Source: a virus
Strand: one strand, 5' to 3'
Virus record (IMG/VR): IMGVR_UViG_3300010430_000424
Coordinates: 1 to 25,256 of that record
Length of the DNA: 25,256 bases
Under the pieces are notes generated by a model. It saw only the letters and a program-made list of their open reading frames with translations, did no database searches and was not told the DNA's origin. Positions within the stretch are counted from its first letter, which is position 1; each line of letters begins with the position of its first letter. The position numbers were made by a program, and so were the translations under genes. This document shows, piece by piece, positions 1,659 to 22,212 of this stretch.

Positions 1659-1677
1659 GTGTAAAATATAGTAAAAG
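1659..1677 (+). promoter_or_regulatory. GTGTAAAA element before the major tail protein gene (copy 1)
   Basis: GTGTAAAATATAGTAAAAG starts 3 bases after the stop of the upstream endonuclease gene and 29 bases before the ATG at 1688. It is one of six copies in the window, all just upstream of a leading gene. TATAGT inside it resembles a sigma70 -10 box, but GTGTAAAA is the invariant part. It is probably a phage late promoter; this is inferred from recurrence and position. Confidence 0.65.
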
Positions 1678-1687
1678 ATAAACAAAT

Positions 1688-3031
1688 ATGGCGCGAAATA
1701 GAATTATCTCCCAATCTGAAGCTTTATTCGTAGGACCGTCGCCCGCCACTGGATTTCACTATACTCTTACTACAGGTTCCGGTGATAATGGCGCGTTTCA
1801 TGGTCTTCCTTCTGGCATTCCAGTCAATCATGGTTATTATGCCCCTGATGGAACAACCGAAATTAATCTAAAAGGCGGAAACACACTCTCTCCGTCCCAA
1901 ACTCTTAGTGGTTTTATTGGTGGGGCTATTAGTGGTGTTGGAATAAGAAACGATCTTACGCAAATACATCGTGTTCAAGGGATTTCACATGACCTAACAT
2001 TGAACCGAACAGACGTAAACCAATTTGGACAGCTAGCCAGACTTAGTGCCGAAATCCTTTCAACCCCAACAGTAACACTTAATTTCTCATATTTACTTGC
2101 AAATGCGGCTAATGAAGCGGCTCTTGGTTTTAATATCAATGGAACTTCAGCGGCTTTGGCATCCATTCTAAATAACACAGAAGATGAAAAAAATTATTTC
2201 ATCAAAACTGTTGCGGATGGTGTTGATGCAATTGGTGGTGGTGTTGATGATACAAATACTGATGTAATTGGTATTGGAAATGGATTTATCACATCCTATA
2301 CCTCCGAGGCTTCCGTTGGTTCTTTCCCAACAGTAAATGTTACCGTTGAGGGCCTTAACAAAGAATTTTTCACTGGCGCATCAGGCAACTTTATTCCCGG
2401 TATTAATCCCGCTGATGGAACTCGTGTTACAAATGCAACAAATAATTTCAACAATGAAGTTGAATTTTCAATGCCCGAGGCTACCGAAAACGTCTCCGGT
2501 ATTACGACTGGTGTTGCCAATATTTCCGCGCTTCGTCCCGGTGATATCACCTTGACACTTACAAAAGCCGGAACATCAACTGCTTATGATGCTCTTGGTG
2601 CCAAAATTGAAGATGCAAATGCAAAAATTCAGTCTTACAATATTACAGCCAACCTTTCCCGTACTCCGATTGAAAAACTTGGCTCCAAATTTGCGTTTGC
2701 TCGTGAGATTGACTTCCCCGCTCCTTTGACAATCTCAATTGATGCCTTGGCTGATGATATCAGAACCGGCTCTTTGATTGATCGTGTCAATTGTGATGAT
2801 GAGTATGATATTGAAATCAATATTAAATCTCCAAGTTCTTGCGGTGGAACCCAGCAGGATGTAATGAAATATATCCTAAAACAAATGACTTTGGATTCTC
2901 AAAGCTATACATCATCCATCGGTGCAAATAAATCAGTTACCATTGATTTCTCCGCGCAGATTCAGGGTCCAAACCAAACTGGTATTGGCCTGTTTATCTC
3001 TGGTAAAGGATTTGATACAGAAGCAGCATAA
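1688..3031 (+). CDS. Major tail tube protein (tail-tube-like fold)
   Basis: 447 residues, ATG start, 29 bases after a GTGTAAAA element and followed by a hairpin terminator, as expected for a highly expressed structural gene. Its position upstream of the chaperone-position genes and tape measure is where siphophages encode the tube protein. The sequence is rich in Thr, Ser, Asn, Gly and Ile with no signal peptide or membrane segment, fitting a beta-rich structural protein. Residues ~120-145 (NFSYLL), ~198-226 (GFITSYTSEAS) and ~321-352 (RTPIEKLGSK) align by eye with matching segments in the proteins at 20383, 22823 and 23671, so this is one of four paralogues. It is the best candidate for the real tube subunit because of its position and terminator. 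The exact role is inferred; I did not recognise a named family from sequence alone. Confidence 0.7.
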   Translation: MARNRIISQSEALFVGPSPATGFHYTLTTGSGDNGAFHGLPSGIPVNHGYYAPDGTTEINLKGGNTLSPSQTLSGFIGGAISGVGIRNDLTQIHRVQGISHDLTLNRTDVNQFGQLARLSAEILSTPTVTLNFSYLLANAANEAALGFNINGTSAALASILNNTEDEKNYFIKTVADGVDAIGGGVDDTNTDVIGIGNGFITSYTSEASVGSFPTVNVTVEGLNKEFFTGASGNFIPGINPADGTRVTNATNNFNNEVEFSMPEATENVSGITTGVANISALRPGDITLTLTKAGTSTAYDALGAKIEDANAKIQSYNITANLSRTPIEKLGSKFAFAREIDFPAPLTISIDALADDIRTGSLIDRVNCDDEYDIEINIKSPSSCGGTQQDVMKYILKQMTLDSQSYTSSIGANKSVTIDFSAQIQGPNQTGIGLFISGKGFDTEAA

Positions 3032-3054
3032 GTTGCTTTAGGACTGGTTGAATA

Positions 3055-3107
3055 AAGAGTTTCGAGGGGGTAGCTCTGCAAAAACCCCCTCACCCCACCT
3101 CTTTTTT
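3055..3107 (+). terminator. Hairpin terminator after the major tail protein gene
   Basis: An 8-bp perfect stem, GAGGGGGT (3064-3071) with ACCCCCTC (3084-3091), encloses a 12-base loop. An outer AAGAG (3055-3059)/CTCTT (3099-3103) pairing brings the structure up to a six-T run at 3102-3107. It lies 23 bases after the tail protein stop. It is not a textbook compact terminator, because of bulges between the stems, but the GC-rich stem and T run fit rho-independent termination or attenuation. Confidence 0.6.
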
Positions 3108-3148
3108 AGGCAAAAGGACAAGAGGATTAAAAAGGAACAAGGTTTTTT

Positions 3149-3358
3149 ATGGACAAGGAAAAAACAAAAGAATTGTTTGAATTTCAAGTGGATAGAAATT
3201 TTGCATACTTGCAGAAAAATATTCTCTTGCTTCTTGAGGATCTTAGGGATGAAAATTTGGTTGGATCAGAATACTATGGGAGATTGCGCAAAAGGGTTCT
3301 TGATTATACCAATGACACCAAAAGGGAAGTAAAGGCATATACTGATAGGTTGTTTTGA
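3149..3358 (+). CDS. Small hypothetical protein between tail tube and VWA genes
   Basis: 69 residues, charged and mainly helix-forming (MDKEKTKELFEFQVDRNFAY near the start, ending KAYTDRLF). I recognise no domain. The start is supported by a ribosome-binding stretch, AAAGGAACAAGG, 6 bases before the ATG. The gene follows the terminator of the tube gene, and its TGA stop (3356-3358) is embedded in the promoter of the next gene. A longer alternative frame (3048-3332) overlaps it but runs through the terminator, so this one is preferred. Position suggests a small tail-assembly or regulatory protein; that is only a guess. Confidence 0.55.
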   Translation: MDKEKTKELFEFQVDRNFAYLQKNILLLLEDLRDENLVGSEYYGRLRKRVLDYTNDTKREVKAYTDRLF

Positions 3359-3404
3359 CAATTGAATAATTTTGTTTGACAATTTTTGGTTTTACTCTTA
3401 GATT
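3355..3404 (+). promoter_or_regulatory. sigma70-like promoter with tandem TTTGACAATT repeats
   Basis: TTGACA at 3376-3381, 17 bases, then TAGATT at 3399-3404 forms a good host-type promoter for the VWA gene at 3431. The 10-base sequence TTTGACAATT occurs twice, at 3354-3363 and 3375-3384, 21 bases apart, so the second copy carries both a -35 box and a weak -10 (GACAAT) for the first. This differs from the GTGTAAAA elements used elsewhere and suggests the VWA/chaperone genes have separate timing. Confidence 0.55.
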
Positions 3405-3430
3405 ACTAGAGTAGGAATAAGGAAAATAAT

Positions 3431-4075
3431 ATGACAAAGAAAAATACATCACGTACTGTTATTGTTTTGGATAGAAGCGGCTCAATGGGCGCAATCGTAA
3501 ATGACACCATTGGTGGAGTTAATCAGTTTATTGACAAACAAAAAGAAAAGAACCCTGAAAATATTCTTTCAATCCATCAGTTTGATACAGAGTTTCATGT
3601 AAGTCACCAAGCTTGTAAAGTTACCGACATCGCTTCGCTTGATGATTCCAATTATGTACCACGGGGCGGAACGGCATTAAACGATGCCATTGGCAAGACC
3701 ATCAATGAACTTGGTAATGAACTCAAAGCATTGCCTGAAAGTGAACGTCCCGACAAGGTTATTTTTCTTGTTGTGACTGATGGTGAGGAAAACTCAAGTC
3801 GAGAATTTAGCACGGAACAAATCAAGGGCATGGTAGAGCACCAGAAAAACAAGTATGATTGGGAATTTGTATTTTTGGGCGCTGATATTGATTCTTTTGC
3901 TGTTGGGGGCAGCATAGGTTTTGTAGGTGCCAGCACAGCCAATTTTAATAAAGCCAATATTGTAAGAACATTGTCTATGACAAGTGAGAAAATTGCGGCT
4001 TATGCTTGTAACGCGGTTACTGACATGGCTTATACTGATGATGAACGGGCGGTTTTGTCCGAAAGTAAATCTTAA
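3431..4075 (+). CDS. VWA-domain protein with complete MIDAS motif
   Basis: 214 residues. A von Willebrand factor A domain fills most of the protein: strand plus DRSGSMG (residues 14-20, giving the DxSxS metal ligands D14, S16, S18), GGTAL with T81, and VVTDGEE with D117. This is a full metal-ion-dependent adhesion site, so Mg-dependent protein binding is expected. There is no signal peptide or membrane segment, so it acts in the cytoplasm or in the virion. The start is preceded by AGGAATAAGG, and a sigma70-like promoter lies just upstream. The next gene begins 6 bases after its stop, so it heads a unit with the two chaperone-position genes. VWA proteins often mediate assembly with partners such as AAA ATPases; none is visible here. 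The tail-assembly role is inferred from location. Confidence 0.8.
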   Translation: MTKKNTSRTVIVLDRSGSMGAIVNDTIGGVNQFIDKQKEKNPENILSIHQFDTEFHVSHQACKVTDIASLDDSNYVPRGGTALNDAIGKTINELGNELKALPESERPDKVIFLVVTDGEENSSREFSTEQIKGMVEHQKNKYDWEFVFLGADIDSFAVGGSIGFVGASTANFNKANIVRTLSMTSEKIAAYACNAVTDMAYTDDERAVLSESKS

Positions 4076-4081
4076 TAATAT

Positions 4082-4903
4082 ATGAAAAAAATCTACGAAT
4101 TTGAAGTATTTGAAGAAGTCGAGGTAGAAAAGGAACATAAGACGACCAATGATGCCGGGGAAGAGGTAATTACAAAAAAGAAGGAAAAACAGGCGCTTGG
4201 CCGCAAATTCTTTCTCAAACAGCCCTCAAGATCCTTAACAGAGGAGGCGCAGCTTTTCTATTCTTCCCAGGTTGCCAAAGCCCAAAAGAAGGGACTAATG
4301 CCCAATGCCCTGATTCAAAAAAGATTCATTGAGGATGGTGGCATCTATACGGAGCAGGAAAAAAAAGAAATTGATGACCTTAAACAAAAACTTCTGAAAT
4401 GTCAGGCTGAATTTGCCAAACTGGAACTTGAAAAGGATACTGAAAAAAATAAAAAGCGGCGCGAAAAATTGGACCAAGACTTTGAAAGACTCAGCACAAA
4501 GCTGCATGGGTTGATTTCTTATGAAAGGTCGCTTTTTCAGAACAGCGCCGAATCCTTTGCTCAAGAACGACTTGCACTTTATTGGTTGGCGTTTTTATGC
4601 TACGAAGTTAAGGGTGAGGTCAATTTGCCCCTATTTGGAACAGACAGTGATTCTTTTGATGAGCGCATTAAATATTATGATAATTTAAGCGAATCAGAGG
4701 AAAAGAGAGATGAGTTTATGCAAACTGTTGTTCAAAAATTCATTTATCTGATCGCCGTTTGGTTAAATAACCCCTCCTCTAGCGTTGATGACTATACAAA
4801 AACGCTTGATCTTCTTGAAAAAGAATCCGGCGATGAACCTGAAAAAGAACCGGAAAAAGAATCCAAGAAGAAGCCAAGCAAGGACGAAAAGGTTAAAACA
4901 TAA
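4082..4903 (+). CDS. Putative tail assembly chaperone, first of pair (G-position)
   Basis: 273 residues, highly charged. Residues ~95-140 (from KKEIDDLKQKLLKCQAEF) look like a coiled coil; a more hydrophobic segment (ERLALYWLAFLCYEV and VVQKFIYLIAVWLNN) follows, and the C-terminus is a Glu/Lys/Pro-rich tail (repeats of EPEKE, then KKKPSKDEK). I recognise no named domain. The place between tail tube and tape measure genes is where siphophages encode the tape-measure chaperones (lambda G/T), which is the basis for the call. The following gene is in the same frame and separated only by TAA GAG before its ATG. No obvious Shine-Dalgarno sequence precedes the ATG, so translation may be coupled to the VWA gene 6 bases upstream. 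Confidence 0.5.
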   Translation: MKKIYEFEVFEEVEVEKEHKTTNDAGEEVITKKKEKQALGRKFFLKQPSRSLTEEAQLFYSSQVAKAQKKGLMPNALIQKRFIEDGGIYTEQEKKEIDDLKQKLLKCQAEFAKLELEKDTEKNKKRREKLDQDFERLSTKLHGLISYERSLFQNSAESFAQERLALYWLAFLCYEVKGEVNLPLFGTDSDSFDERIKYYDNLSESEEKRDEFMQTVVQKFIYLIAVWLNNPSSSVDDYTKTLDLLEKESGDEPEKEPEKESKKKPSKDEKVKT

Positions 4904-4906
4904 GAG

Positions 4907-5899: not shown

Positions 5900-5906
5900 A
5901 CCCACA

Positions 5907-5922
5907 GTGTAAAATATAGTAA
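5907..5922 (+). promoter_or_regulatory. GTGTAAAA element before tape measure gene (copy 2)
   Basis: GTGTAAAATATAGTAA lies 8 bases after the preceding stop and 33 bases before the ATG at 5940. The first 16 bases are identical to copy 1. It is preceded by CCCACA, as in copy 5 at 22194. A ribosome-binding stretch, GGAATAAGG, follows it at 5928-5935. Confidence 0.65.
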
Positions 5923-5939
5923 CATTGGAATAAGGTTTA

Positions 5940-8900
5940 ATGGTCACACCGGACGCAATCATCCCAGTAGGAGCAGATACAACACCCCTGGTTAGGGATA
6001 TATCCAGCGCTTTAAGAAAAATTCAACAAAGTTCATTAACGCGCCTAAATGTCAGGAACATTGCCGAACCTCTTGGAAGAATTAGTGGTCTTGCCAGTGA
6101 ATTTGAAAAATCATTGGAAGCAGCTAATGCTCGTGTTTTGGCCTTCGGCGCTTCAGCCGGTATTTTATTTCAAGTTGTAAGAGCCTTTAGGGAAACTGTA
6201 AGCGCCACCATTCAAGTTGAAAAGAGTTTAAAAGACATCAATGTTATCTTAAATGCCAGCGAATCACAGTTGTCTCGTTTTGGCAATCAATTGTTCAAAG
6301 TCGCCGCCAATACCGGACAAACCTTTGATACTGTAGCCCAGGCTGCCGCTGAATTATCAAGACAAGGTTTAACTCTGCAAGAAACGCAAAAGCGTGTTCA
6401 AGATGCTCTTATTCTAAGTCGTCTTTCGGGCCTTGACGCCTTAAATGCCGTTGAATCATTAACCGCCGCGCTTAATACTTTTAACCAAGTTGGCCTCGAC
6501 TCCACTGCCGTCATTAACAAGTTGGCCAATGTTGATGCCGCCTTTGCCGTTAGTTCAGCCGATCTTGCCGAATCCCTAAAACGAACTGGTAACACCGCCA
6601 AAGATGCTCAGGTTAGTTTTGATGAACTTTTGGGCATTGTGGCCGCTGTTCAAGAAAGAACGGCTCGTGGCGGCGCTGTAATTGGTAATGCTCTAAGAAC
6701 CATTTTTGTCAGAACGCAAAGGCCCCAAACTCTTGATGATTTGGAGGAACTTGGTATTCAAGCCAGGGAATCGGGCAATAAAACAAGACCGCTTTTGCCG
6801 ATTTTACAACAGTTGGCCGATAGATTTAGTTCCTTGTCAGACGCCCAGCAATCAAATATTGTTCAACAAGTCGCTGGTGTAAGACAGGGTGAAATTTTGC
6901 GGGCTCTTTTGGCTGATTTGTCAAGCGGCTACTCCAATGTTGCGGAGGGGGCTCAAATTGCCGCCAACTCAACCGACCAAGCCAACAAGAGAAATGAAGA
7001 ATTAAACAAAACACTTTCCGCGCAAACAAACAGACTACTTGCAAATTTAACAAAAGTTGGTTCCGCCGTTGGGTCATTATCCCTCGGGCCTCTTTTGGAG
7101 GGTGGTGTCGGATTCTTAAATAAGATATTGGAACTCGATGAAAGTACAAACCAATTGGTTAATACTGGCCTTGCTTTTGGAGAAGCCATTCTGGAAGGTC
7201 TTGGCAAAGCTCTTGTCGGCCCGGGCGCTGGAATTTTAGCTGTTTTTGCAAAGAATTTATTTGTTGATTTTGCCCGTTTTGTAACAACCGCCGTTAGTGA
7301 AATAGGAAAATTAAACCAAGCGGCAAGAACCCAAAATGCAATTCAAAGAAGTATTGCCTCTGTTTTAAGTTCGCAGCCCGAACTTTTAACTCAAATAAGC
7401 CGTGGGGAGAGAACAGTTGAGAGTGTCGCAAGAGAAACCCTTTCCCTATATGAAAGCCAAAGACTTGTTCTTCAACAGATTAACACAATTTCGGCAAGTA
7501 TTGCCAGAAACACAATAGCCGGGGCCGGGGGGGCTGGCGCTTTTGATCAAACAGCGGTAAGAAGAGGAACCGCCACCTTGAGAACACGCGGGGTCCTTGG
7601 CGCCGCAAATGGCAATCCAAGAATATTTAGGTCACTCTCCGGGGCTATTAATAATGAAATTAAGGGTGGTGTTCCAAGAACGGCAATTAGACTAAATTCA
7701 TCAAGAGCCCTTTCAACAAGAACAAATCCAACCGGACTTGCTGTTACCAACGTAAGGGATGAGCCCCAGGGGTTGAGAAGCATTGGAATTCCAAATTTTG
7801 TTGATCCTTTAAGACTTGTCACCACAAAAGGAACGGTTGGTGGCCAATTAAAATTAAATAGATCTGAATTAACTGAATTTACAAAAGCCCTTAATCTACT
7901 ACAAAACGAGGGAACAAAACTTGGAGATGTATTTTCAAAAATAAGAGAATCAGTAAGAAGCAAGAAGGGTAGCACTTCTGTATTTGACGATTTGGTTTCT
8001 TCGGCGTCAATAAGGTCTGGGGCCGGAAGAAGAGATATTGTCGATCCGATAAAGTTGAATAGAGCCGAAACAGCCAAACTTGGCAAGGTTGACGTTGATC
8101 GTAACCTCCTTCCTGCCGTAAGACAAAATTTTCTTCCCGTATTGAGATCTGATCTTGAAAAGTTAAATCAAGAAACCGCCAAGTCTATTTCCCAAGTAAT
8201 CAGCCAATCAGCAGACAGGCAGGAGTTAAAGAATAAGGTTGATCCCAAAACTGGAAAAGAACCAACGATCAATAGAGAACCCACAACGAATACAAGAAGG
8301 CCAACAGATATTAGGGTTGGTGTTCCCATCACTCCCCCGGCAATTGTCGATAAAAATACGGATAATTTGTTTAAAGCCGTAAATTCTCTTTCAAAACAGA
8401 TTGAAGAAAATGAACTTGCGTCAAGAAGAGCGGCAACGGTTGGAACAAGTAGGGTTGGTGGGTTTGCAAGGGAAGATATTAGGGGTTTTACCGCTGATAG
8501 GGGGGGTAGATTACTTTTGCCGGAAGCTAGCGAAAGCACTTTGGCCCAAAGACAAAGACAGGAAGCTCTAAAAGGAAGGCTTTTTGAAAGACAAAGGCAA
8601 AGAGATTTAGCCAAGTCTTTGAGATTAAATGTATTTGACGAAGCTTTACCGACTAGATCTGACCGTGCAAAAGAATTTTTTACAAAAAAAAGAAATGTTA
8701 GCTTACGTGGCGGTCGTCTTGAGCGTCTTGGAAATAAAGTTGGTGGAACTCAAGGAACTTTTGCCCTATTTGGAGCTTCCGCAATCGCCAATAGTATCGC
8801 TGGAGCAAATCCCGATAGTCGTTTTGCTCAAGGAGCATCAAATGTTATCAATAATACCGCAACAGCAGCCATTTTCGGCAGCTTGATTAATCCTGTAGCT

Positions 8901-11654
8901 GGCGCTATTGCAGGACTTTCCACATTGGTAATTTCTCTATCAAAAGAATTCGGTTTGCTTGACAGTGCAACCAAAGGGCTTGTAGATAGTTTCAAAAACT
9001 TTTTTGGATCTTATGATACTGGGGAACTGGATGTTGAAAGAGACAAGGTTCTTGAGGATATAAGAGACTTGTTTAAAACCGAATTCATTACAACTACCAC
9101 AACTTTACCAAACAATAGAATTACAAATGCAATCCCATTCGGTGCCGGTGGACCCGGAGGAGCGCCATCTTCTTTCAATAATACCGGTCGAGTAGAAACA
9201 ACGACAGCCGTTACAACCCTAACTGATCCTAGAAAATTTTCACAATTTTTATCATCTTCTTTATCTGGAGACAGCGTGGAAGAGTTAAGCAAATCATTAG
9301 TTTCTTTTAATGCAATTGTAAGCAATAGCTTGTTTGGAGACAAAGCAAGTATAGAAAAGGCAATAATTAGATTTTCACAAGGTATTGAAGATCCAGCGCA
9401 AAGAAGAAATTTCAACGCCGCTTTTACCGCATTACCAGAGAATGAATTAAAAGGGATATTTGGAAACCAATCCCTCAAAGAATTGTTTACAGAAGACATA
9501 TTAAAAGAAATAGACAAAATAAAAGAAGCCTTAAAGGGAAAAAATAATCTCGAAATTGACTTAATTAACCAACAAGTCAGCCTTCTTGAATCAAGATTAA
9601 ATTCAGTCAATCAAATTAGCCAAATAAATAGGGCCGGAAATATCAGAAACGCTCAATTCCGGGGAGGACAAGAAAGATTTGGTCTGGAAACATCCCTAAG
9701 ATCCTTACTATTAACTCCTTTGGAAGAAATTGGTTTCAGGTCACAGCGCGAATCCCAACAGATCAGGGATAGACAGCGCAATGAACAGGCCAACATAAAT
9801 GATACATTTTTAAAAGCAAATTTTCAACTTTTTGATGATCTTGAGTCTTTTTTTGCAAGCTCAGCAAACGCAAAGACAGCCAGCGTGGTTACAACAAGAA
9901 TCGCCGCATCAGAACTGTCTGGTCCCGACACCCTAAGAGAAGTTCTTAGCGACAAGAACATTGAACTTGAAGAAAAAGAACGTGAGAAATTGGTAGATAC
10001 CCTTACCAAACTCCAGTCCCTTGAAAATGACAAACTTGAAGCAACAGAAAAAATCCTAACAGAGACAGAGGAATCTTTAAAAACCCTTGAAAGAAATCGC
10101 GAACTCCAAGAAAAAGAAATAAAATTAAGATTTGAGCGCGAAAGATTGTTGGATAGGGCTAATGCAAACTTAAAACTCATTGATTCTCGGCGCCAGTTTT
10201 CAAGAAACGCAGAATCCATTGAATCCCTAACATCCTCAAGGAGAGAAGATCTTAATGCAAGAATTGCCAGTCGTGGATTGGTGCCCAACGATTTTAATGA
10301 GGGAATCAACAATGCCCTCAATGAGTCTTTTCAAAGAAACGATCTTGATGTATTTAATCAAGTTGTTGGCACCGTTGATGAATTGGCAAAAACACTCAAA
10401 TCCGGCCTTACTACAGCCCTAACTGATACAATTCTACAGGCAAAAAGTGCCTCCGAGGCTTTTGGCGGTTTGGCCGATGCAATAGCAAGAATCGCCCTAC
10501 AAAGAAGTTTAGAAACTTTGTTTGATTCCGCGTTAAGCAGGGCTGGTTCCGCTTTTGGGAATGGAAGACAAGGATTTATGTCTGGCGGCCTTGTCCAAGG
10601 AGGTTCTGGTTTTCGAGATGATGTTCCAGCCAACTTGAACTCAGGTGAGTTTGTATTAAGGCGAAGCGCCGTTAATAGAATCGGCGTCGGAAACCTAAAT
10701 CAATTAAATCAGCAATCATTTTTGGGACTTCAAGATGGTGGTTTTGCAAGGGTTAATTTAAATAATAGCACACAATTCCTTGGAAATCCAAGGCGTCCAT
10801 CCGGCTTTAGAATAAATATTGATCCAAGCCTATCGGCATTTGCCCTGTCAAGTGACATCAATAGACAAAACCAAGTAAGGGAAGAAAGAACCCAACAGGC
10901 AATTTCCTACAGACAACAGCAACAACAACTTCTTGATCAGTTCAGAAAACAACAGCAGGGAAGAAGACTTGGGGCCTTGATTACTTTGGTTTCATCCGCT
11001 GCTGGAGCCGCGCTAAACAATCCAAATTCTGGAATTGGAGGAAGTGATTTTTCTGGAACTGGCCCACAGCAAGCCACAAACAAAGGGTTCACAGCGTCAA
11101 GAAGTGGAATTTTGAGAAATTCAGGTTCGGCCTTTAATCAGGGCGGTGTCGTTGGACTAGAAAGGGGTGGTATTCCAGCAATCTTAACTGGCGGTGAATT
11201 TAGGGTAAATAGAGATTTGGCATCATCAATTGGAATGGACGCTTTGGGAAGACTCAATTCCGGCCAAATATCCTCATTCCAGGGAGGCGGTGCCACATCC
11301 AGCATTCCATCCCAAGAGAACCCGACAGAACGAGTTGTTGATGCAATTAAGGAGCTTCAATCCGTACTTGAAAAAAATAATCCAGCAACAACAAGCCAAG
11401 GCGGCCAGCAACAAAATAATCAATCAAGGCTTGCCCCCTCAATCAATATTGACATTCCCATAACAATACAAGGGGGTTCGTCTTCTGATTTGAGCACGAC
11501 AAGATCCACCGAAGAAATTGACTTGCAAGAAGATAGCAATAGGGACCAAGATTTGCAACAGTTCCAGAATACAATGCGTGCAATGATACAAACTGAAATT
11601 GAAAAACAATCAAGGCCCGGCGGCCAATTATACTCAATAGTCAAAAATTCTTAA
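5940..11654 (+). CDS. Tape measure protein (TP901-type core)
   Basis: 1904 residues, the largest gene in the window. Residues ~60-420 form a PhageMin_Tail/TP901-type core with typical phrases (FGASAGILFQVV, LSRQGLTLQETQKRVQDA, VSSADLAESLKRTG, GGAVIGNALRTIFVR). Hydrophobic Ala/Gly-rich stretches occur near 940-1000 (ALFGASAIANSIAGA), and a charged coiled coil lies near 1340-1415. The C-terminal region carries two copies (about 1545-1597 and 1733-1783) of the GG-rich motif common at tape measure ends, with DDVPANLNSGEFVLRRSAV and IPAILTGGEFRVNRDLA. No peptidase or muramidase motif was seen. It sets tail length and passes through the tube at DNA ejection. By the rough rule of 0.15 nm per residue it predicts a tail near 285 nm. 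The start has GGAATAAGG upstream; the stop lies one base from that of the convergent gene. Confidence 0.95.
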   Translation: MVTPDAIIPVGADTTPLVRDISSALRKIQQSSLTRLNVRNIAEPLGRISGLASEFEKSLEAANARVLAFGASAGILFQVVRAFRETVSATIQVEKSLKDINVILNASESQLSRFGNQLFKVAANTGQTFDTVAQAAAELSRQGLTLQETQKRVQDALILSRLSGLDALNAVESLTAALNTFNQVGLDSTAVINKLANVDAAFAVSSADLAESLKRTGNTAKDAQVSFDELLGIVAAVQERTARGGAVIGNALRTIFVRTQRPQTLDDLEELGIQARESGNKTRPLLPILQQLADRFSSLSDAQQSNIVQQVAGVRQGEILRALLADLSSGYSNVAEGAQIAANSTDQANKRNEELNKTLSAQTNRLLANLTKVGSAVGSLSLGPLLEGGVGFLNKILELDESTNQLVNTGLAFGEAILEGLGKALVGPGAGILAVFAKNLFVDFARFVTTAVSEIGKLNQAARTQNAIQRSIASVLSSQPELLTQISRGERTVESVARETLSLYESQRLVLQQINTISASIARNTIAGAGGAGAFDQTAVRRGTATLRTRGVLGAANGNPRIFRSLSGAINNEIKGGVPRTAIRLNSSRALSTRTNPTGLAVTNVRDEPQGLRSIGIPNFVDPLRLVTTKGTVGGQLKLNRSELTEFTKALNLLQNEGTKLGDVFSKIRESVRSKKGSTSVFDDLVSSASIRSGAGRRDIVDPIKLNRAETAKLGKVDVDRNLLPAVRQNFLPVLRSDLEKLNQETAKSISQVISQSADRQELKNKVDPKTGKEPTINREPTTNTRRPTDIRVGVPITPPAIVDKNTDNLFKAVNSLSKQIEENELASRRAATVGTSRVGGFAREDIRGFTADRGGRLLLPEASESTLAQRQRQEALKGRLFERQRQRDLAKSLRLNVFDEALPTRSDRAKEFFTKKRNVSLRGGRLERLGNKVGGTQGTFALFGASAIANSIAGANPDSRFAQGASNVINNTATAAIFGSLINPVAGAIAGLSTLVISLSKEFGLLDSATKGLVDSFKNFFGSYDTGELDVERDKVLEDIRDLFKTEFITTTTTLPNNRITNAIPFGAGGPGGAPSSFNNTGRVETTTAVTTLTDPRKFSQFLSSSLSGDSVEELSKSLVSFNAIVSNSLFGDKASIEKAIIRFSQGIEDPAQRRNFNAAFTALPENELKGIFGNQSLKELFTEDILKEIDKIKEALKGKNNLEIDLINQQVSLLESRLNSVNQISQINRAGNIRNAQFRGGQERFGLETSLRSLLLTPLEEIGFRSQRESQQIRDRQRNEQANINDTFLKANFQLFDDLESFFASSANAKTASVVTTRIAASELSGPDTLREVLSDKNIELEEKEREKLVDTLTKLQSLENDKLEATEKILTETEESLKTLERNRELQEKEIKLRFERERLLDRANANLKLIDSRRQFSRNAESIESLTSSRREDLNARIASRGLVPNDFNEGINNALNESFQRNDLDVFNQVVGTVDELAKTLKSGLTTALTDTILQAKSASEAFGGLADAIARIALQRSLETLFDSALSRAGSAFGNGRQGFMSGGLVQGGSGFRDDVPANLNSGEFVLRRSAVNRIGVGNLNQLNQQSFLGLQDGGFARVNLNNSTQFLGNPRRPSGFRINIDPSLSAFALSSDINRQNQVREERTQQAISYRQQQQQLLDQFRKQQQGRRLGALITLVSSAAGAALNNPNSGIGGSDFSGTGPQQATNKGFTASRSGILRNSGSAFNQGGVVGLERGGIPAILTGGEFRVNRDLASSIGMDALGRLNSGQISSFQGGGATSSIPSQENPTERVVDAIKELQSVLEKNNPATTSQGGQQQNNQSRLAPSINIDIPITIQGGSSSDLSTTRSTEEIDLQEDSNRDQDLQQFQNTMRAMIQTEIEKQSRPGGQLYSIVKNS

Positions 11655-11655
11655 T

Positions 11656-12429: not shown

Positions 12430-12436
12430 ATTTTCC

Positions 12437-16030: not shown

Positions 16031-16668
16031 TATGATACGTTTTCTAAATTATCAGCCAATTCAAAAGAAACTTTAAAACTTGCAGCAATTCTTTGGCTCC
16101 CAACGAGCATTGTTCCATAACCAACTGGAACCGGCCTACCTTCCCCCACCACATTTGTTGGGCCATTGAACAAATAATTTTCCGTACTTGGGGCAATTGG
16201 GTTTGGCTTTGGCGGTTTGGCGAGCAATCCGGCAACCCCGGCTCCCAGCAAGCCAAGACCGGCAGCCGCAATAAAACCACCATATGGGCCGCCAACATAT
16301 AGTCCAACAATAACCAATATAGCCCCCAAAATTGTCAAGAAAATATCAAGACCTTTTCCGCTTCCCTTCAGAATAGGAATAATATCAAGGCTTTTTAATG
16401 TTCTTTTTATTGTCAGTCCAGACTGAGTGTATTTTTCAACATCATCTTTGTGTTCGGGCTTGTAATGCTTGCCATTAATCAACACCTTATAACGAACGCC
16501 AAGTTTGTCATAGTTATAAAGAAGTTTTGTAAGTTGGTTTTTTGTCAAAACATCAATAGCCCTAATTGCCTCACCAACAGACTTTACCGCAAGATCCCAC
16601 CTGGCTTTCCCTAATTTTTTTCCAATATATCCATGCAGTGTTATTTTTGCTTTTTGTTGGCTCATCAT
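16030..16668 (-). CDS. I: Tail assembly protein I-like
   Basis: 212 residues. The N-terminal ~95 residues match the lambda I family: ITLHGYIGKKLGKARWDLAV and then SVGEAIRAIDVL, followed by YKVLINGKHY. A strongly hydrophobic Gly/Ala/Leu/Ile segment covers about residues 108-150 (FLTILGAILVIVGLYVGG, then AAAGLGLLGAGVAGLLA), and the C-terminus has NVVGEGRPVPVGYGTMLVGS, the usual end of this family. In lambda, I is needed for tail-tip assembly. The ATG overlaps the K-like stop (ATGA), and the stop overlaps the J-like start. A second ATG follows immediately (MM), so the real start could be one codon later. Confidence 0.88.
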   Translation of the reverse strand: MMSQQKAKITLHGYIGKKLGKARWDLAVKSVGEAIRAIDVLTKNQLTKLLYNYDKLGVRYKVLINGKHYKPEHKDDVEKYTQSGLTIKRTLKSLDIIPILKGSGKGLDIFLTILGAILVIVGLYVGGPYGGFIAAAGLGLLGAGVAGLLAKPPKPNPIAPSTENYLFNGPTNVVGEGRPVPVGYGTMLVGSQRIAASFKVSFELADNLENVS

Positions 16669-17414
16669 GATGTCTTTCTCATTACAGCTATTGATTTTTG
16701 GAAAACCTTGCCCTTGGACACGAAATTTTTGAGGGTTCTTTTTCTTGATGGTGATTTTGATGGCTGGTCATAAAAAACTCCATTTCCATCATATACAGAA
16801 ACGTGACAAGCTGGTTTTACATCTCTTTCGGGGAAAAACACAATGTCTCCTTTTTGAATATTCTTGGTTACTTTGGAAAAACCGAGACCTCTGTAATAAT
16901 CAACGAAAACATTAATATACTCCTCCTTGTTGTATGGTGACTTAACCATTTCTTCATAAGTTAATAGCCGCCAATGAAAAAAGTCATGTTTTGGAAATCT
17001 TATGTTAAGAACCTCCTCGTAGTAATCTTTCACAAGTTCGGTGCAATCAAAAATCCCAAGAATAAACGGTCTATTAAGCAATGGTATTTTAATTCCCTTT
17101 GGTTCATAGAACTCAAAATTGTTTGTTAAGTTGGAATAGACAAGCATTGGCACTTTTTGCTTTTCGCTAATAAGCCTGTCAAATTCGGAAAGATTATGAT
17201 CTTGATTAACGTGGGTATGAAAAGTGCAATAAATGTCCTTTTCAAATTTTTCTGTTTCGTAAGGATTGGCAATGTAGTGGTTTTGCTTGTCTTTTGAAAG
17301 GTTTTTAAAGAACTCGGTCGTTCCATCTTGCAGAATAATTCCACCAATTTCCTCACCCGGAAAATAGTTTTGCGCCGACTTGATTCTCATTAATGGAATG
17401 TTGATATTAATCAT
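16665..17414 (-). CDS. K: Tail tip protein K-like: JAB/JAMM peptidase + NlpC/P60 domain
   Basis: 249 residues from the ATG at 17414, which overlaps the stop of the upstream JAB gene (ATGATTAA). An in-frame TTG at 17432 and an ATG at 17426 give slightly longer forms. Numbering from 17414: residues ~10-105 are a JAB/MPN domain with E21/E22 and the full motif FHTHVNQDHNLSEFD (H66, H68, S76, D79). Residues ~115-249 are NlpC/P60, with catalytic C124 in GIFDCTELVKDYY and H204 in ACHVSVYDG. This is the lambda K architecture: a metallopeptidase-like module joined to a murein endopeptidase acting at the tip during assembly and cell-wall entry. Confidence 0.9.
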   Translation of the reverse strand: MININIPLMRIKSAQNYFPGEEIGGIILQDGTTEFFKNLSKDKQNHYIANPYETEKFEKDIYCTFHTHVNQDHNLSEFDRLISEKQKVPMLVYSNLTNNFEFYEPKGIKIPLLNRPFILGIFDCTELVKDYYEEVLNIRFPKHDFFHWRLLTYEEMVKSPYNKEEYINVFVDYYRGLGFSKVTKNIQKGDIVFFPERDVKPACHVSVYDGNGVFYDQPSKSPSRKRTLKNFVSKGKVFQKSIAVMRKTS

Positions 17415-17784
17415 GCAGAACCCCATTTCCAAAAAGCTTTTGCCTTATCTCCGGTTTTAATCGTTTTTCCGGGTCAACAATTTCAAATTTATCCAACCTA
17501 TTGATATAGACAATGTTAAAATAGCCGGTTATTTCAGCATACTCAACGTCAAACAAACTTGGCAAATCGGAACACCTCTCTGTATGGGAGTGAAAGACGC
17601 CAACAACATCACCAATCTTTTCCGCCCTTAGGAAATCATCATAAGAAATTTCGTAGCCAAATTCTGGATCTTCATCAACATTTCGGCATGGAATTATATG
17701 TAAATCATTCTTACTCAATGCAATAAGCCCGCACATTTCCTGCCGGGTATTGCTTAAACAATGACGTTTTATTTCCTCGATCAT
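17407..17784 (-). CDS. Free-standing JAB/JAMM metallopeptidase-like protein
   Basis: 125 residues forming one JAB/MPN domain: E16 in RQEMCGLIA, FEIS-like segment YEISYDDF, then VVGVFHSHTERCSDLPSLFD with H65, H67, S76 and D79. All predicted zinc ligands of the JAMM motif are present, so it is potentially active. It overlaps the K-like gene, which has its own JAB domain, so this tail carries two JAMM modules. It is the first gene after a minus-strand GTGTAAAA element. The start ATG at 17784 is supported by AAAAGGAT just upstream. It could process a tail component or a host-envelope target; neither substrate is visible in the sequence. Confidence 0.85.
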   Translation of the reverse strand: MIEEIKRHCLSNTRQEMCGLIALSKNDLHIIPCRNVDEDPEFGYEISYDDFLRAEKIGDVVGVFHSHTERCSDLPSLFDVEYAEITGYFNIVYINRLDKFEIVDPEKRLKPEIRQKLFGNGVLHD

Positions 17785-17793
17785 ATCCTTTTG

Positions 17794-17811
17794 CCTTATG
17801 ATATTTTACAC
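17794..17811 (-). promoter_or_regulatory. GTGTAAAA element before JAB/K/I/J unit (copy 6, minus strand)
   Basis: On the minus strand GTGTAAAATATCATAAGG begins at 17811, 27 bases before the ATG at 17784. A partial copy (GTGTAA) lies 9 bases further upstream. TATCAT inside it resembles a -10 box. It sits between the homing endonuclease gene and the tail genes, so the unit could be transcribed independently of M and L. Confidence 0.62.
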
Positions 17812-17847
17812 AATTACACTTTTTTTTCGGGAAATTCTTTTTATCCC

Positions 17848-17859
17848 TATAATTATAAT
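17848..17859 (+). promoter_or_regulatory. Tandem TATAAT before homing endonuclease gene
   Basis: TATAATTATAAT (17848-17859) holds two perfect -10 boxes end to end, two bases before the ATG at 17862. No good -35 and no Shine-Dalgarno sequence are visible. If the first box is used, transcription would start almost at the ATG, giving a leaderless or near-leaderless message. Promoter use is inferred. Confidence 0.4.
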
Positions 17860-17861
17860 AG

Positions 17862-18620
17862 ATGAAAAAATATACAACCGCCGATTTTGTAAGAATGGCT
17901 AGGGAAAAACATGGGGATAAGTATGACTATTCATTGGTTGAGTATAAGAATAGAGAGAGTAAAGTAAAAATAATTTGTCCGAAACACGGGATTTTTGAAC
18001 AAAATGCGCAAAGCCATTATCAAAAAGGACATGGATGTTTGAGATGCTCAAAACTTAGTTACGAAGATTTCTTAAAAAGGGCTCGAACAATACATGGCAA
18101 CTTATTCAATTACTCATTGTTGGATTACAAAGGGACTAGACAAAGAATTAAAGTAGCATGCCAAAATGGTCATATTTTTAGCATTAGGGCAGACAATCAT
18201 TTAGCGGGAGGTGGTTGCCCAAAATGTAAAGAGTCATCCTTGGAGACAAACATGAAGGCAATCCTGATTAGAAACAAAATCCACTACAACCACCAAAAAA
18301 AGTTCAAAACATGCTATAATCCCGAAACTGACAAAGCCCTAATTTTTGACTTCTATCTTCCTAATTATAAAACACTTATAGAAATTAATGGTCCCGCGCA
18401 CTACATCAAGAATTTTTACAAATCCAGCAATGATAACTTCTCCAATAGGGTCAAAAGAGATTTAATAAAGAGGCGCTGGTGCAAAAACAACAATTACAAT
18501 TTTCTCGTCATTCCATATACAAGAACAAAAAATATGGAGGAAATATTGCTTGGCTTTATCGAGAAGAAATCTTGTTTATGCCAGCAAAGCCACCAAATGG
18601 AAGTTCCCTCGTTGACTTGA
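17862..18620 (+). CDS. Homing endonuclease with two zinc ribbons and PD-(D/E)xK-like nuclease
   Basis: 252 residues, antisense to the tail-tip cluster. Two DUF723-like zinc-ribbon modules come first (HGDKYDYSLVEYK, ICPKHGIFEQ, CLRC; then GNLFNYSLLDYKG, ACQNGHIF, CPKC). The C-terminal domain has LIFDFYLPNYKTLIEINGP, HY and FLVIPYT, fitting a small PD-(D/E)xK/Vsr-related nuclease (D and E of the core, later basic RVKRDLIKRRW). It lacks the long C-terminal domain of the gene at 1-1656, though the first ribbon modules are close relatives. Its last 65 bases overlap the 3' end of the L-like gene on the other strand. It is probably a mobile intruder between the L and JAB/K genes. Expression may be leaderless. 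Confidence 0.8.
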   Translation: MKKYTTADFVRMAREKHGDKYDYSLVEYKNRESKVKIICPKHGIFEQNAQSHYQKGHGCLRCSKLSYEDFLKRARTIHGNLFNYSLLDYKGTRQRIKVACQNGHIFSIRADNHLAGGGCPKCKESSLETNMKAILIRNKIHYNHQKKFKTCYNPETDKALIFDFYLPNYKTLIEINGPAHYIKNFYKSSNDNFSNRVKRDLIKRRWCKNNNYNFLVIPYTRTKNMEEILLGFIEKKSCLCQQSHQMEVPSLT

Positions 18621-19686
18621 AAGATCCATCCTCCTGAAGCGCCGCCCTACCAAACCTTAGCCCACAAGCATGAATACTTTTTGAACATTGATCGGCATCC
18701 CAAAAATCCGAATTACTTGTTGGTGGAGTGTTTTCGGGGACTGCCTTTTTAGCAACAAAATAATAATTGATTCCATCTTTTGTCACATAAACGTACTCTG
18801 CTTGGCCATATGTTTTTTCCGGGTCATATTCCCCCTTGTCATATTCTTGAAGTTCTGTTTGGGTAAGATTGAAATAATTAATTCCATAAACATCAGAGAA
18901 CTTTGAATCAGCAACATTTGCAACCGGAGGAGCATAACCATTTCTTCCAAGATATTTTTCCAAAACCCCATCGTGCTCTGTTGAAAGTCTTGAAGTTCCA
19001 TTTATTCTATTATCGGCAAATTCATAACAGCAGCCCTCACCCCTATAGGAAAATGGGCATCTATTTGCCAAAACAAGTCTCTTGGGCAATTTTTGGCCGC
19101 GAACATCAAACAAAGTATTCAATTCATATTTAAGTATTAACTTACTCTCCTCTATTTTTCTATCAATGTAAAATATTTGCCTAACAAATTCAGCGTTCGG
19201 GTCCGGGTCAAAACCCTCTGGTGGCTTGCGACCAATAAAGTTAATTGAATCAATATGCTTTGCAAATGTTCTAATTCTTGTAACCTTTGCCCCAACCATC
19301 TCTGAGATAGATGCAATTTGGCATTTTAATAGGGAAAGGGCCGCCGATCCTTCCTCAAGTGTTGATATTGTAAGGGTTGGTGTAGGGGCTGGTCCAGAAC
19401 CATTTAATTCAAAGCCATCAGCTTGAATTGGCATTGCGAAAAACGTATTTCCCTGAAAAACTAAATCGCCCCTTGTCAAAGAAAGGTTGTTATGAAATCT
19501 GAATATTGTAAGTTGTTCGTATTGCTTGTTGTTGGAACTTGAGACACTTGTCACCCCATTTTCAAACAAAACATCAGAAAGATCTATTTCGTAAAAAGTG
19601 ACTATTGTTGATGGATTGAGTTTGTTTGCCTCTTTATTTATCTTTTTTGAACCAGATAGAGCCTGCGCTTTTGTTAAGTTTGGCAT
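18556..19686 (-). CDS. L: Minor tail protein L-like (Fe-S tail hub) with internal insertion
   Basis: 376 residues against about 230 in lambda L. The N-terminal half has the L pattern (VTFYEIDLSDV, LTRGDLVFQGNTFFAMPIQADGFE, with PTPTLTIS). Cysteines C210 and C219 (NRCPFSYRGEGCC) and C334 and C341 (QCSKSIHACGLRFG) keep the spacings C-x8-C and C-x6-C of the [4Fe-4S] ligands in lambda L, but the two pairs are 115 residues apart instead of about 23. The extra ~90 residues contain KTYGQAEYVYVTKDGINYYF and a later W, resembling a small CBM5/12-type module. ELPFGGFAGI at the end is typical. The ATG is one base after the M-like stop. The 3' end overlaps the antisense homing endonuclease. Confidence 0.88.
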   Translation of the reverse strand: MPNLTKAQALSGSKKINKEANKLNPSTIVTFYEIDLSDVLFENGVTSVSSSNNKQYEQLTIFRFHNNLSLTRGDLVFQGNTFFAMPIQADGFELNGSGPAPTPTLTISTLEEGSAALSLLKCQIASISEMVGAKVTRIRTFAKHIDSINFIGRKPPEGFDPDPNAEFVRQIFYIDRKIEESKLILKYELNTLFDVRGQKLPKRLVLANRCPFSYRGEGCCYEFADNRINGTSRLSTEHDGVLEKYLGRNGYAPPVANVADSKFSDVYGINYFNLTQTELQEYDKGEYDPEKTYGQAEYVYVTKDGINYYFVAKKAVPENTPPTSNSDFWDADQCSKSIHACGLRFGRAALQEDGSFKSTRELPFGGFAGINKISSR

Positions 19687-19687
19687 A

Positions 19688-20254
19688 TTACAAAGTAAGT
19701 TGATAAGGTTCTGGTTTTACTTGCCTAAAAATAGCCCTAATATCGAAGTGTTCTCTTGGCTTGGTCTGGGTTTCCCACTGTTCGCAAACAAACATCTTAT
19801 TGCTCATAAATGGCTTGGGAGGGTTAAACGCAAACGATTCCACCCCTGCTCTTTGATGAAGAAAGTGCAATATGGCCGTTGTTTCATAAACGTCGCGGGT
19901 TAAAAATTGCAAATCATAATTGAGAAGATTGGTATTTATACCATCCTGGGCTCTGTGTTCAACACCAACACCAAATCTGACTATTTTCAATCTTGGCTGC
20001 TGAGTCATCGTTGTTGAGTATGAAGGGGACCAGATAAAATGTTTTGTCGTTACTCCATTGATTCCCACCTCGGCTTTTGTCCATTTTTCGGAATTGTAGC
20101 CATTTATTGTAAAATCACTCAATGATTTTTGATGATCCTTGAGGGCATAGTAATAAATATGGCTATTGGCTGGATGCTCAACAATTTCATGCCTTTTTAT
20201 ATTAAAAGATGCCGAACTCCATGTCTTTATGTCATATATAGAAGGCTGCGCCAT
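19688..20254 (-). CDS. M: Minor tail protein M-like, minus-strand copy
   Basis: 188 residues; lambda M is about 110. The C-terminal ~110 residues match the M family: HFIWSPSY, KIVRFGVGVEHRAQDGIN, AILHFLHQRAGVESFAFNPP and KMFVCEQWET. The N-terminal ~80 residues are extra and include EIVEHPANSHIYYYALKDH and a following W, a pattern also seen in the copy at 22221 and in the L insertion. M acts in the tail tip next to L, and here they are adjacent in lambda order. The gene is first in its minus-strand unit, preceded by a GTGTAAAA element and by GGAATAAGG before the ATG. Confidence 0.85.
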   Translation of the reverse strand: MAQPSIYDIKTWSSASFNIKRHEIVEHPANSHIYYYALKDHQKSLSDFTINGYNSEKWTKAEVGINGVTTKHFIWSPSYSTTMTQQPRLKIVRFGVGVEHRAQDGINTNLLNYDLQFLTRDVYETTAILHFLHQRAGVESFAFNPPKPFMSNKMFVCEQWETQTKPREHFDIRAIFRQVKPEPYQLTL

Positions 20255-20266
20255 TTTTTCCTTATT

Positions 20267-20284
20267 CCTTTACTATTTTTACAC
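20267..20284 (-). promoter_or_regulatory. GTGTAAAA element before M/L unit (copy 3, minus strand)
   Basis: On the minus strand GTGTAAAAATAGTAAAGG begins at 20284, 30 bases before the ATG at 20254. Relative to copies 1 and 2 it lacks one T after GTGTAAAA but keeps ATAGTAA. It is followed by GGAATAAGG as ribosome-binding site. Confidence 0.65.
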
Positions 20285-20309
20285 CACCTCATTCTATAAT
20301 AGATAGAAA

Positions 20310-20347
20310 GGTCACATAAAACTTTTCAAATTGGTAAAATCGTGACC
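20310..20347. promoter_or_regulatory. Inverted repeat GGTCAC...GTGACC in divergent promoter region
   Basis: GGTCAC at 20310-20315 and its inverse complement GTGACC at 20342-20347 lie 32 bases apart (about three helical turns) between the two divergent GTGTAAAA elements. The right arm ends one base before the plus-strand element. It could be an operator affecting both directions, but short arms like these also occur by chance. Confidence 0.3.
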
Positions 20348-20348
20348 C

Positions 20349-20372
20349 GTGTAAAACCAAATAGGTTTAAGG
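20349..20372 (+). promoter_or_regulatory. GTGTAAAA element before the 600-residue tail gene (copy 4)
   Basis: GTGTAAAACCAAATAGG, followed by TTTAAGG, begins 34 bases before the ATG at 20383. GTGTAAAA is exact, while the following tract is the most divergent of the six. A TATAAT at 20295-20300 upstream could add a host-type -10 box. Confidence 0.55.
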
Positions 20373-20382
20373 TTCAAAGAAT

Positions 20383-22185
20383 ATGTCAAATTTTCAGCCA
20401 ATCCACAGACTAAATAGGGAAAATGTATTTATTTACCTAAATGACACTCCCATTTCAGGCGCCCAAAGCCTGTCGGCCTCTTGGAATAGCAATCTTTCCA
20501 ATATCAAGTTCCTTGGGATGCAGCAGCAGGAAATTGTTGAAAAACCAATTGGTCCCCAGGTTGGAACAGTTACCCTAAATTCGCTTGTTGTAAATCAAGA
20601 CCAATTTATCAACTTTACAGGAGAGGCGGGACTAAATGGTTATGTATTGGACCCAGAATCAACAAACAAAAACTATTCCTTCACTTCTGGATTCCTAACG
20701 TCTTATAATTCAAGAGCTTCCATCAACTCAATTCCCGAGATTAACACCACCTTCACAGTCCTTGGGAACATGGGCAATCTCCCAACTGGGGGGCCTCTTG
20801 AGTTAAATTTTCAACAAAATAGGTCCAATTTAAATAATAGCGGCGAATATAGCATAGCCGACCCAAATAGAATTTCAATCAGTCTTGATGATTATGACAC
20901 AAACCGGGTGTTAAATTATGAACTTATTATAAATGTTGACAGAAACAGCTTTTACTCCATTGGGGGAAGATCGGCAAGCGCTGTAAAAATCAATTATCCA
21001 ATCGAAGTCACCACAACCTTTCAATTTGAGATTGACAATTATGACTTTCGAAACATGAAGGATAGTCCATGTAAGGAGAAGATTGAAAATCTATCCATTG
21101 GACTTAATAAATACCAGGGTGGACAAATTTTGTCTTATGATTTTTCCGGCATGAAACTGATTGCCGAAACTTACTCAGCAACCACTGAGGGAAATATTGT
21201 TGTTGATGCAACTTATAGGACTTATTTGAAAAAACTGGATTCGGTTCTAAATGCAAAGCCAGCGCTGCCAAATTTTGATTTTGATTCAAATCAGAATTCC
21301 ACAACTGGCGTGGCGGCAATTATTTATGGGACTGGTGTTTGTGATATAGAATTGGGCGATGATCCCGAATTTTGTTTTGAATGTATTAATGATACCGTTT
21401 GTGGCAGGGGGGTTTGCACACCAACGCCCTCCAATACTCCATCAACATCAATATCGCCAAGCGCCTCAAACACGCCGTCAAACACGCCAACAAATACTCC
21501 AACGCCAAGTGTCACACCAAGTATCTCTGTAACGCCAACACCATCAAACACCCCAACAAATACCCCAACACCGACACCATCTGAAGGAGCACCGCCACCG
21601 ACACCGCCAGCTTCACCCCCGGCGTCACCACCGAATTCGCCACCCAATTCACCACCGGCGTCTCCGCCAAATTCACCGCCCGCTTCTCAACCGGCTGTTG
21701 ATCCAGAATGTTTTGATGCTTTCGGGGGCGAAAGGATTCCAACGGTAATTAATGTTCATTTAGCTTTTACTCTTAGGTCAGATTGCCACGGGAATGGGAC
21801 TAGAGATACTAGCTGTGATGATTTAGACACCCTCCTTGATAATGATATTGAGTGTGGCGTTTCCAATGTCACGGTAACTCTTGAAGCATACTCCGAGCAA
21901 GAAGGGCTCCAAGTAACATGTGGGTCAGCAAAGACAATTAATTATGTTTTGGATGGAAATGACGAAAACTCTACACTATTGAATGAAGGTGTCGATGTTC
22001 CAATAATTGGTTGTTGTTGCGCACAAGGTATTAAGTATAGCTATACAACAAGATGCACAAATGATTGCGCTCCAGATTGTGATAGTAATGAAAATTTCCT
22101 TGATGTATCGAATGCGACACAAGAATGTAATAGCTTTGATGGATGTTGCCCTGAAAATGGTGTTATTATTTCCATAACAGGATAA
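20383..22185 (+). CDS. Tail-tube-like protein with Pro-rich stalk and Cys-rich C-terminal head
   Basis: 600 residues in three parts. Residues ~1-320 are tail-tube-like, sharing SGFLTSYNSRASINSIPEIN (about 102-121) and a later SFYSIGG segment with the proteins at 1688, 22823 and 23671. Residues 346-437 are a low-complexity linker of TPSNTP-type then PPASPPNSP-type repeats, flanked on the left by five cysteines (VCDIELG to GVC). Residues ~438-600 form a compact Cys-rich domain with 14 cysteines (including GCCC and GCC), Asn/Asp-rich. The stalk-and-head design suggests a virion surface decoration or fibre projecting from a tail disc; the cysteines may form disulfides outside the cell or bind metal. 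No signal peptide. It is first in its plus-strand unit. The function is inferred. Confidence 0.65.
   Translation: MSNFQPIHRLNRENVFIYLNDTPISGAQSLSASWNSNLSNIKFLGMQQQEIVEKPIGPQVGTVTLNSLVVNQDQFINFTGEAGLNGYVLDPESTNKNYSFTSGFLTSYNSRASINSIPEINTTFTVLGNMGNLPTGGPLELNFQQNRSNLNNSGEYSIADPNRISISLDDYDTNRVLNYELIINVDRNSFYSIGGRSASAVKINYPIEVTTTFQFEIDNYDFRNMKDSPCKEKIENLSIGLNKYQGGQILSYDFSGMKLIAETYSATTEGNIVVDATYRTYLKKLDSVLNAKPALPNFDFDSNQNSTTGVAAIIYGTGVCDIELGDDPEFCFECINDTVCGRGVCTPTPSNTPSTSISPSASNTPSNTPTNTPTPSVTPSISVTPTPSNTPTNTPTPTPSEGAPPPTPPASPPASPPNSPPNSPPASPPNSPPASQPAVDPECFDAFGGERIPTVINVHLAFTLRSDCHGNGTRDTSCDDLDTLLDNDIECGVSNVTVTLEAYSEQEGLQVTCGSAKTINYVLDGNDENSTLLNEGVDVPIIGCCCAQGIKYSYTTRCTNDCAPDCDSNENFLDVSNATQECNSFDGCCPENGVIISITG
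21418..21693 (+). repeat. Ser/Thr/Pro-rich linker repeat inside the 600-residue gene
   Basis: 92 codons encode first about 53 residues of degenerate TPTPSNTP/TPSVTPS repeats, then about 35 residues of PPASPPNSPP repeats. Codons vary between units, so the array is maintained mainly at protein level, though near-identical DNA blocks (such as those encoding NTPTNTPTP) remain and could recombine. Such linkers are usually extended and flexible. Confidence 0.85.
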
Positions 22186-22193
22186 AGCCCACA

Positions 22194-22212
22194 GTGTAAA
22201 ATAAACTAAAGG
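22194..22212 (+). promoter_or_regulatory. GTGTAAAA element before M paralogue (copy 5)
   Basis: GTGTAAAATAAACTAAAGG begins 9 bases after the preceding stop and 27 bases before the ATG at 22221. It is preceded by CCCACA exactly as copy 2, so 16 bases (CCCACAGTGTAAAATA) are identical between the two sites. Confidence 0.65.

Follow-up and report, generated by a model that had tools for sequence, protein, structure and literature searches.

A GTGTAAWW box heads morphogenesis genes on both strands in uncultured phages and is a likely late promoter for a phage-encoded sigma factor

The stretch of viral DNA analysed here (the window, 25,256 bases) is an entire linear IMG/VR fragment, and our gene set for it consists of simple ORF calls. 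Six of its genes are headed by the same short element. On the plus strand these encode a 447-residue tube-like protein (1688–3031), a 1904-residue tape measure protein (5940–11654; phrog_4211, E=1.5e-51), a 600-residue protein with a weak phrog_15511 match (20383–22185) and the second of two M-like proteins (22221–22823; phrog_14, E=9e-22). On the minus strand they encode the other M-like minor tail protein (19688–20254; phrog_14, E=6e-20) and the JAB-domain half of a lambda-K-like protein (17407–17784; Prok-JAB PF14464, phrog_30). This K-like protein is split, and the JAB gene overlaps by 26 nt with an NlpC/P60 gene at 16665–17432. "Tube" is the label of the first-pass annotation: PHROG and Pfam searches gave no match for this protein, which has 49 relatives in IMG/VR, and its gene position is what suggests that it belongs to the tail. 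HNH/homing-endonuclease-like genes (phrog_559) at 1–1656 and 17862–18620 adjoin two of the elements, and one of them separates the K-like from the L-like tail gene. The tail module also contains a gene (3431–4075) whose product weakly matches von Willebrand A domains; TTGACAATTGAATAATTTTGTTTGACA, which may be a sigma70-type promoter, stands before it.

The first-pass annotation had reported six copies of an octamer, GTGTAAAA, 27–34 bases before start codons. All six lie where it had placed them; counted from the first G, the start codon lies at 29 nt (1659, plus), 33 nt (5907, plus), 34 nt (20349, plus), 27 nt (22194, plus), 30 nt (20284, minus) and 27 nt (17811, minus). The window holds seven exact copies in total against 1.26 expected, a number that no shuffled sequence reached, and six of the seven fall inside a 12-nt slot 5′ of starts (P ~8e-14 for 20 genes, the slot covering 0.48% of stranded positions). 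The seventh (22392–22399, minus strand) runs antisense within the second M-like gene with no start downstream at promoter distance, and we take it as a chance or non-functional copy. The core of the element is GTGTAA followed by two A/T bases (GTGTAAWW), in the form GTGTAAAA in the window phage, and an AT tract (TATAGT) adjoins it directly, without an 8-nt gap. The further claim that the element always precedes a first gene held for orientation; however, three of the sites (1659, 5907 and 22194) come a few nucleotides after a gene on the same strand and so head internal units. A nearly identical record, G001, prolongs the window 9.5 kb rightward and adds one site, 33 nt 5′ of the start codon at G001:25176.

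The individual promoters, with transcription starts (+1) predicted by the rule derived below, are as follows. At 1659–1673 (plus), GTGTAAAA (1659–1666) is followed by the spacer TATAG, a T and an A; the A is the predicted +1 (1673), and the tube-like gene (1688) would have a leader of 15 nt. The tape measure gene (5940) would be transcribed from the promoter at 5907–5921 (plus; predicted +1 at 5921), with a 19-nt leader containing GGAATAAGG. Two promoters form a divergent pair: one at 20270–20284 (minus; predicted +1 near 20270, 16-nt leader) before the M-like minor tail gene, and one at 20349–20363 (plus; predicted +1 at 20363, 20-nt leader) before the gene for the 600-residue protein (20383). 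The second M-like gene (22221) is preceded by a promoter at 22194–22208 (plus), with a predicted +1 at 22208 and a 13-nt leader. Before the JAB-domain gene the element is a tandem, GTGTAATT-GTGTAAAA (17797–17819, minus; boxes at 17819–17804), in which a second box copy, GTGTAATT, lies at 17819, 8 nt upstream of the box at 17811; its predicted +1 is 17797 and its leader 13 nt long. In the relative G003, no GTGTAA is listed 18–48 nt from the corresponding minus-strand genes except that for M, and the box at 17811 may therefore be linked to the HNH-like insertion.

The scan of relatives proposed in the first-pass annotation found the element widely kept. GTGTAAT precedes the tube-like gene in 35 of the 49 IMG/VR relatives, mostly within GTGTAATAACAATAAATGGAG; several of the others are unjudgeable, since the match starts inside the gene. 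Reading 11 larger records from end to end showed the box retained at 27–31 nt in front of tube-like, tape-measure-sized and M-sized genes. A very large ORF at the place of the tape measure gene has GTGTAA 30–31 nt upstream in seven relatives, most with a TATAGTAAAGGAATAAGG-like leader, and the 178–182-residue counterpart of the M-like protein has it at 27 nt in G003, G005, G010, G013, G004 and G009. In a blind test of all 4096 hexamers, GTGTAA was the most enriched 10–45 nt upstream of genes in 13 of 13 records, the window included (6 copies versus 0.2 expected in the window, 29 versus 1.0 in G003, 15 versus 1.4 in G018). The same test recovered the known late promoter of T4 (TAAATA, TATAAA) as a positive control and mainly Shine-Dalgarno (SD) words from the negative controls Slash and MaeS. 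A search window of −18 to −48 misses a class of sites 14 nt from the start codon, and so understates the motif in G019 and in the sigma A loci described below.

Across the relatives and the window, the box heads portal-position genes (a label that rests on gene position) as well as tube-like, tape measure and M-like genes, and it heads morphogenesis transcription units on both strands. In G003, 29 genes are headed by GTGTAA and 16 by sigma70-type promoters (TTGAC[A/T]...TA..T); no gene is shared, and the two sets mostly occupy different genome regions. These observations agree with the earlier description of the element as late-type, and from gene content we infer that GTGTAA-headed genes are expressed late.

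The element had also been proposed to be phage-specific and to be read by a modified or phage-encoded polymerase or sigma factor. The relatives do encode sigma factors (15 of 20 records in a Pfam region 2 search), and searches of them for a multisubunit, RpoC-type RNA polymerase and, without a positive control, for a T7-type enzyme were negative. One sigma family, which we call sigma A, is present in 7 of 7 records with an intact terminase region (G005, whose record ends inside its terminase gene, is outside this count) and at no fewer than 558 IMG/VR loci. Sigma A has about 227 residues, comprising a region 2 (PF04542 above cut-off in several members), a Cys-rich insert and a C-terminal sigma-4-like helical domain. 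In 90 loci the gene order is nearly constant (a Cys-rich protein of about 140 residues, sigma A, a 364-residue protein and an ERCC4-type nuclease), and in the records checked the terminase and portal genes come after the nuclease. A search of 50,697 cultured-phage records gave no sigma A relative, and queries with the J protein, the terminase and sigma retrieved distant cultured relatives or none. The gene is absent from the 25-kb window and its 9.5-kb extension, and its presence in relatives suggests that the window phage carries it elsewhere. Divergent copies, 39–55% identical, occur in three MAG contigs with adjoining GTGTAA-headed genes. The labels of these contigs would point to a Flavobacteriales host, a possibility we rejected: they are poor evidence, and the stretches we read look like phage.

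In the AlphaFold model of sigma A (pTM 0.38), helices are confident in region 2 and in the sigma-4-like C-terminal part, but the Cys-rich insert (residues 81–101) and a linker (125–144) are poorly modelled, which helps to explain the low whole-chain TM-scores. The best matches of this model among solved structures were mostly ECF-type sigma factors and were weak (best E 0.014, TM about 0.26). The C-terminal helices align with those of ECF factors in the model; PF04545 has no match within sigma A, and the promoters have no −35 element. Based on the co-occurrence of gene and box, sigma A, rather than another factor, probably reads GTGTAAWW. The Cys-rich protein encoded at position −1 in the 90 loci (e.g., G003:16790–17239) has an N-terminal zinc-ribbon-like motif of four cysteines, an acidic middle and, in many members, an "ILEDFAKEAG"-like C-terminal tail; it is possibly a coactivator of sigma A. 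Elsewhere in these genomes, G018 encodes a 317-residue sigma70-like protein with regions 2 and 4 alongside sigma A (G018:117040–117993, in L117), and G003 encodes an adenylosuccinate-synthetase-like protein (L089:9016–9945) matching phrog_1211 ("2-aminooxy adenylosuccinate synthetase"), which raises the possibility of a modified or Z-type genome.

The best surviving alternative accepts the late promoter and assigns its reading to a second sigma family, B (about 205 residues, regions 2 and 4), or to an unseen factor, with sigma A otherwise employed. Family B occurs in G003, G004, G009, G017, G019 and G020, and one could argue that late genes would logically be driven by an early-expressed sigma, whereas the sigma A operon of G003 apparently is itself headed by GTGTAA (L164:8096). 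We nevertheless regard this assignment as unlikely: the 158-kb G018 has sigma A and an enriched box, yet the family B profile matches its sigma70-like protein only weakly, and it is sigma A that is found in all seven records with an intact terminase region and that keeps its neighbours in 90 loci.

The box could instead be a weak promoter for the host's sigma70-type factor, with TGTAAT or TGTAAA serving as a poor −10 element, given that TGTAAT is one base from TATAAT. The first-pass annotation had noted that typical −35 boxes are not shared, and we likewise found no conserved −35 information across 54 non-redundant sites, where only GTGTAA (fixed by site selection) and the A/T preference that follows it stand out. 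Moreover, the leading GTG belongs to the top enriched word, and the GTGTAA-headed and TTGACA-type gene sets are almost disjoint (no overlap in G010, G018 and G004, as in G003, and one gene in G017). Recognition by host sigma70 thus appears very improbable.

The context of the box favors a promoter over a 5′ mRNA element, in agreement with the preference stated at first pass. Intrinsic terminators lie within 70 nt upstream of 11 of 279 box sites, compared with 7 of 2019 genes that lack it (P=1e-6), and in several cases the terminator's T-run abuts the box. A divergent partner, that is, an inverse copy within 70 nt upstream, is present at 39 of the 279 sites, compared with a direct copy at 6; the window's 20284/20349 pair is of this type. 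Since a transcript has to start afresh both past a terminator and within a divergent pair, the promoter reading is the supported one. The spacing of the box points the same way. Among 252 dereplicated sites the distance to the ATG has a sharp maximum at 14 nt (n=57) and 15 nt (n=38; together 95 of 252), with a steep lower edge (n=3 at 13 nt), and in 155 dereplicated genes the box is only 11–18 nt from the ATG. SD-like words accompany 5% of this 11–18-nt class, the level of a shifted control, versus 47% of the class at 22–36 nt. A translation enhancer or processing site in the mRNA might be expected from distances that are short and often fixed, but is scarcely credible given that they range from 10 to 48 nt with a spike at 14, that separate SD-like words are present where distance allows, and that the box stands where new starts are needed.

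For the promoter, the same distances suggest where transcription begins. In the 22–36-nt class, the base at offset 14 from the start of the motif is a purine in 81% of sites and that at offset 13 is a T in 52%; five of the window's six sites combine a T at offset 13 with an A at offset 14. Together with the spike at 14–15 nt and the loss of SD words there, this places the predicted +1 at motif start +14. The mRNAs of the 14–15-nt class would then be leaderless, their 5′ ends exactly at the start codon, and the window's six units, at 27–34 nt, would have leaders of 13–20 nt. The same +1 provides an explanation for the consensus tract of the first-pass annotation: the shared TATAGTAAAGG is there, although as a succession of discriminator, T/A(+1) and SD sequence and not as a single element.

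We therefore think it likely that a large clade of uncultured phages uses GTGTAAWW as a late promoter consisting of a single −10-type box, without a −35 element and most likely read by the ECF-like sigma A. In the mechanism that we propose, the box would span about −14 to −7, and RNA would start 14 nt past its first G, usually with a purine preceded by a T. The host RNA polymerase, the presumed core, would be directed to the box by sigma A, whose gene adjoins those for the terminase, and promoters on both strands would allow the tail module to be transcribed in both directions. We lean, on balance, towards a broader view: that hundreds of uncultured phages share an undescribed late system in which an ECF-like sigma with a Cys-rich insert, possibly with the Cys-rich coactivator, reads a −35-less GTGTAAWW, and in which a large share of late mRNAs are leaderless and bypass the SD step. 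Our literature searches returned only unspecific matches to GTGTAA and no description of a GTGTAA/sigma A late system. The result is a predicted two-strand transcription map of a common phage clade whose sigma-A-bearing members are absent from the cultured collection searched, together with a candidate sigma–promoter pair distinct from host promoters.

The closest parallel is the T4 late promoter, a single 8-bp box beginning at −13 and read by gp55 with gp33 and gp45 (PMC2988020). In both systems a single 8-bp box lies roughly a helical turn 5′ of +1 (here at about −14), with an AT-rich stretch just downstream and no −35 element; sites occur on both strands, and the reader, putative here, is sigma-like and phage-encoded. 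The boxes differ, however (GTGTAAWW here, TATAAATA in T4), and TATAAA/TAAATA tops the hexamer test in T4 only. The putative reader also differs from gp55 in being an ECF-like sigma made of a single chain, which carries a Cys-rich insert and ends in a sigma-4-like domain; gp55, which we assume has a PDB entry, was not among the PDB sequence matches of the sigma A profiles A1 and A2 (E up to 1 and 10). The gp45-type clamp family PF02916 matched T4 and 0 of 11 relatives, and the PolIII-type PF00712 none, in records that are possibly incomplete. Many of the mRNAs are also predicted to be leaderless, another difference from T4. Since the box and the kind of sigma differ and no T4-type clamp was found, we place this system outside the T4 late system, which it resembles in how it works.

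ECF (group 4) sigma factors such as SigE, SigW and SigH share the PF04542 region 2 with sigma A, and ECF factors dominate its weak fold matches. ECF promoters carry a conserved −35 element as well, unlike the GTGTAAWW sites. To our knowledge, a Cys-rich insert between domains is not usual in these factors. GTAAAA, which PDB 5or5 names as the ligand of an engineered SigE region 2, occurs within GTGTAAAA.

For the leaderless class, the parallel is with Deinococcus-Thermus, where, according to PMC12340547, a −10 region adjacent to the ORF gives leaderless mRNA. In both cases a −10 box is placed so as to give a message without a leader; there the genes are the host's, whereas here the box is a phage's, and predicted leaderless and leader-bearing genes occur within the same genomes. 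If the leaderless prediction is true, the virus tunes the distance from box to AUG and so chooses between leaderless and SD-led late messages.
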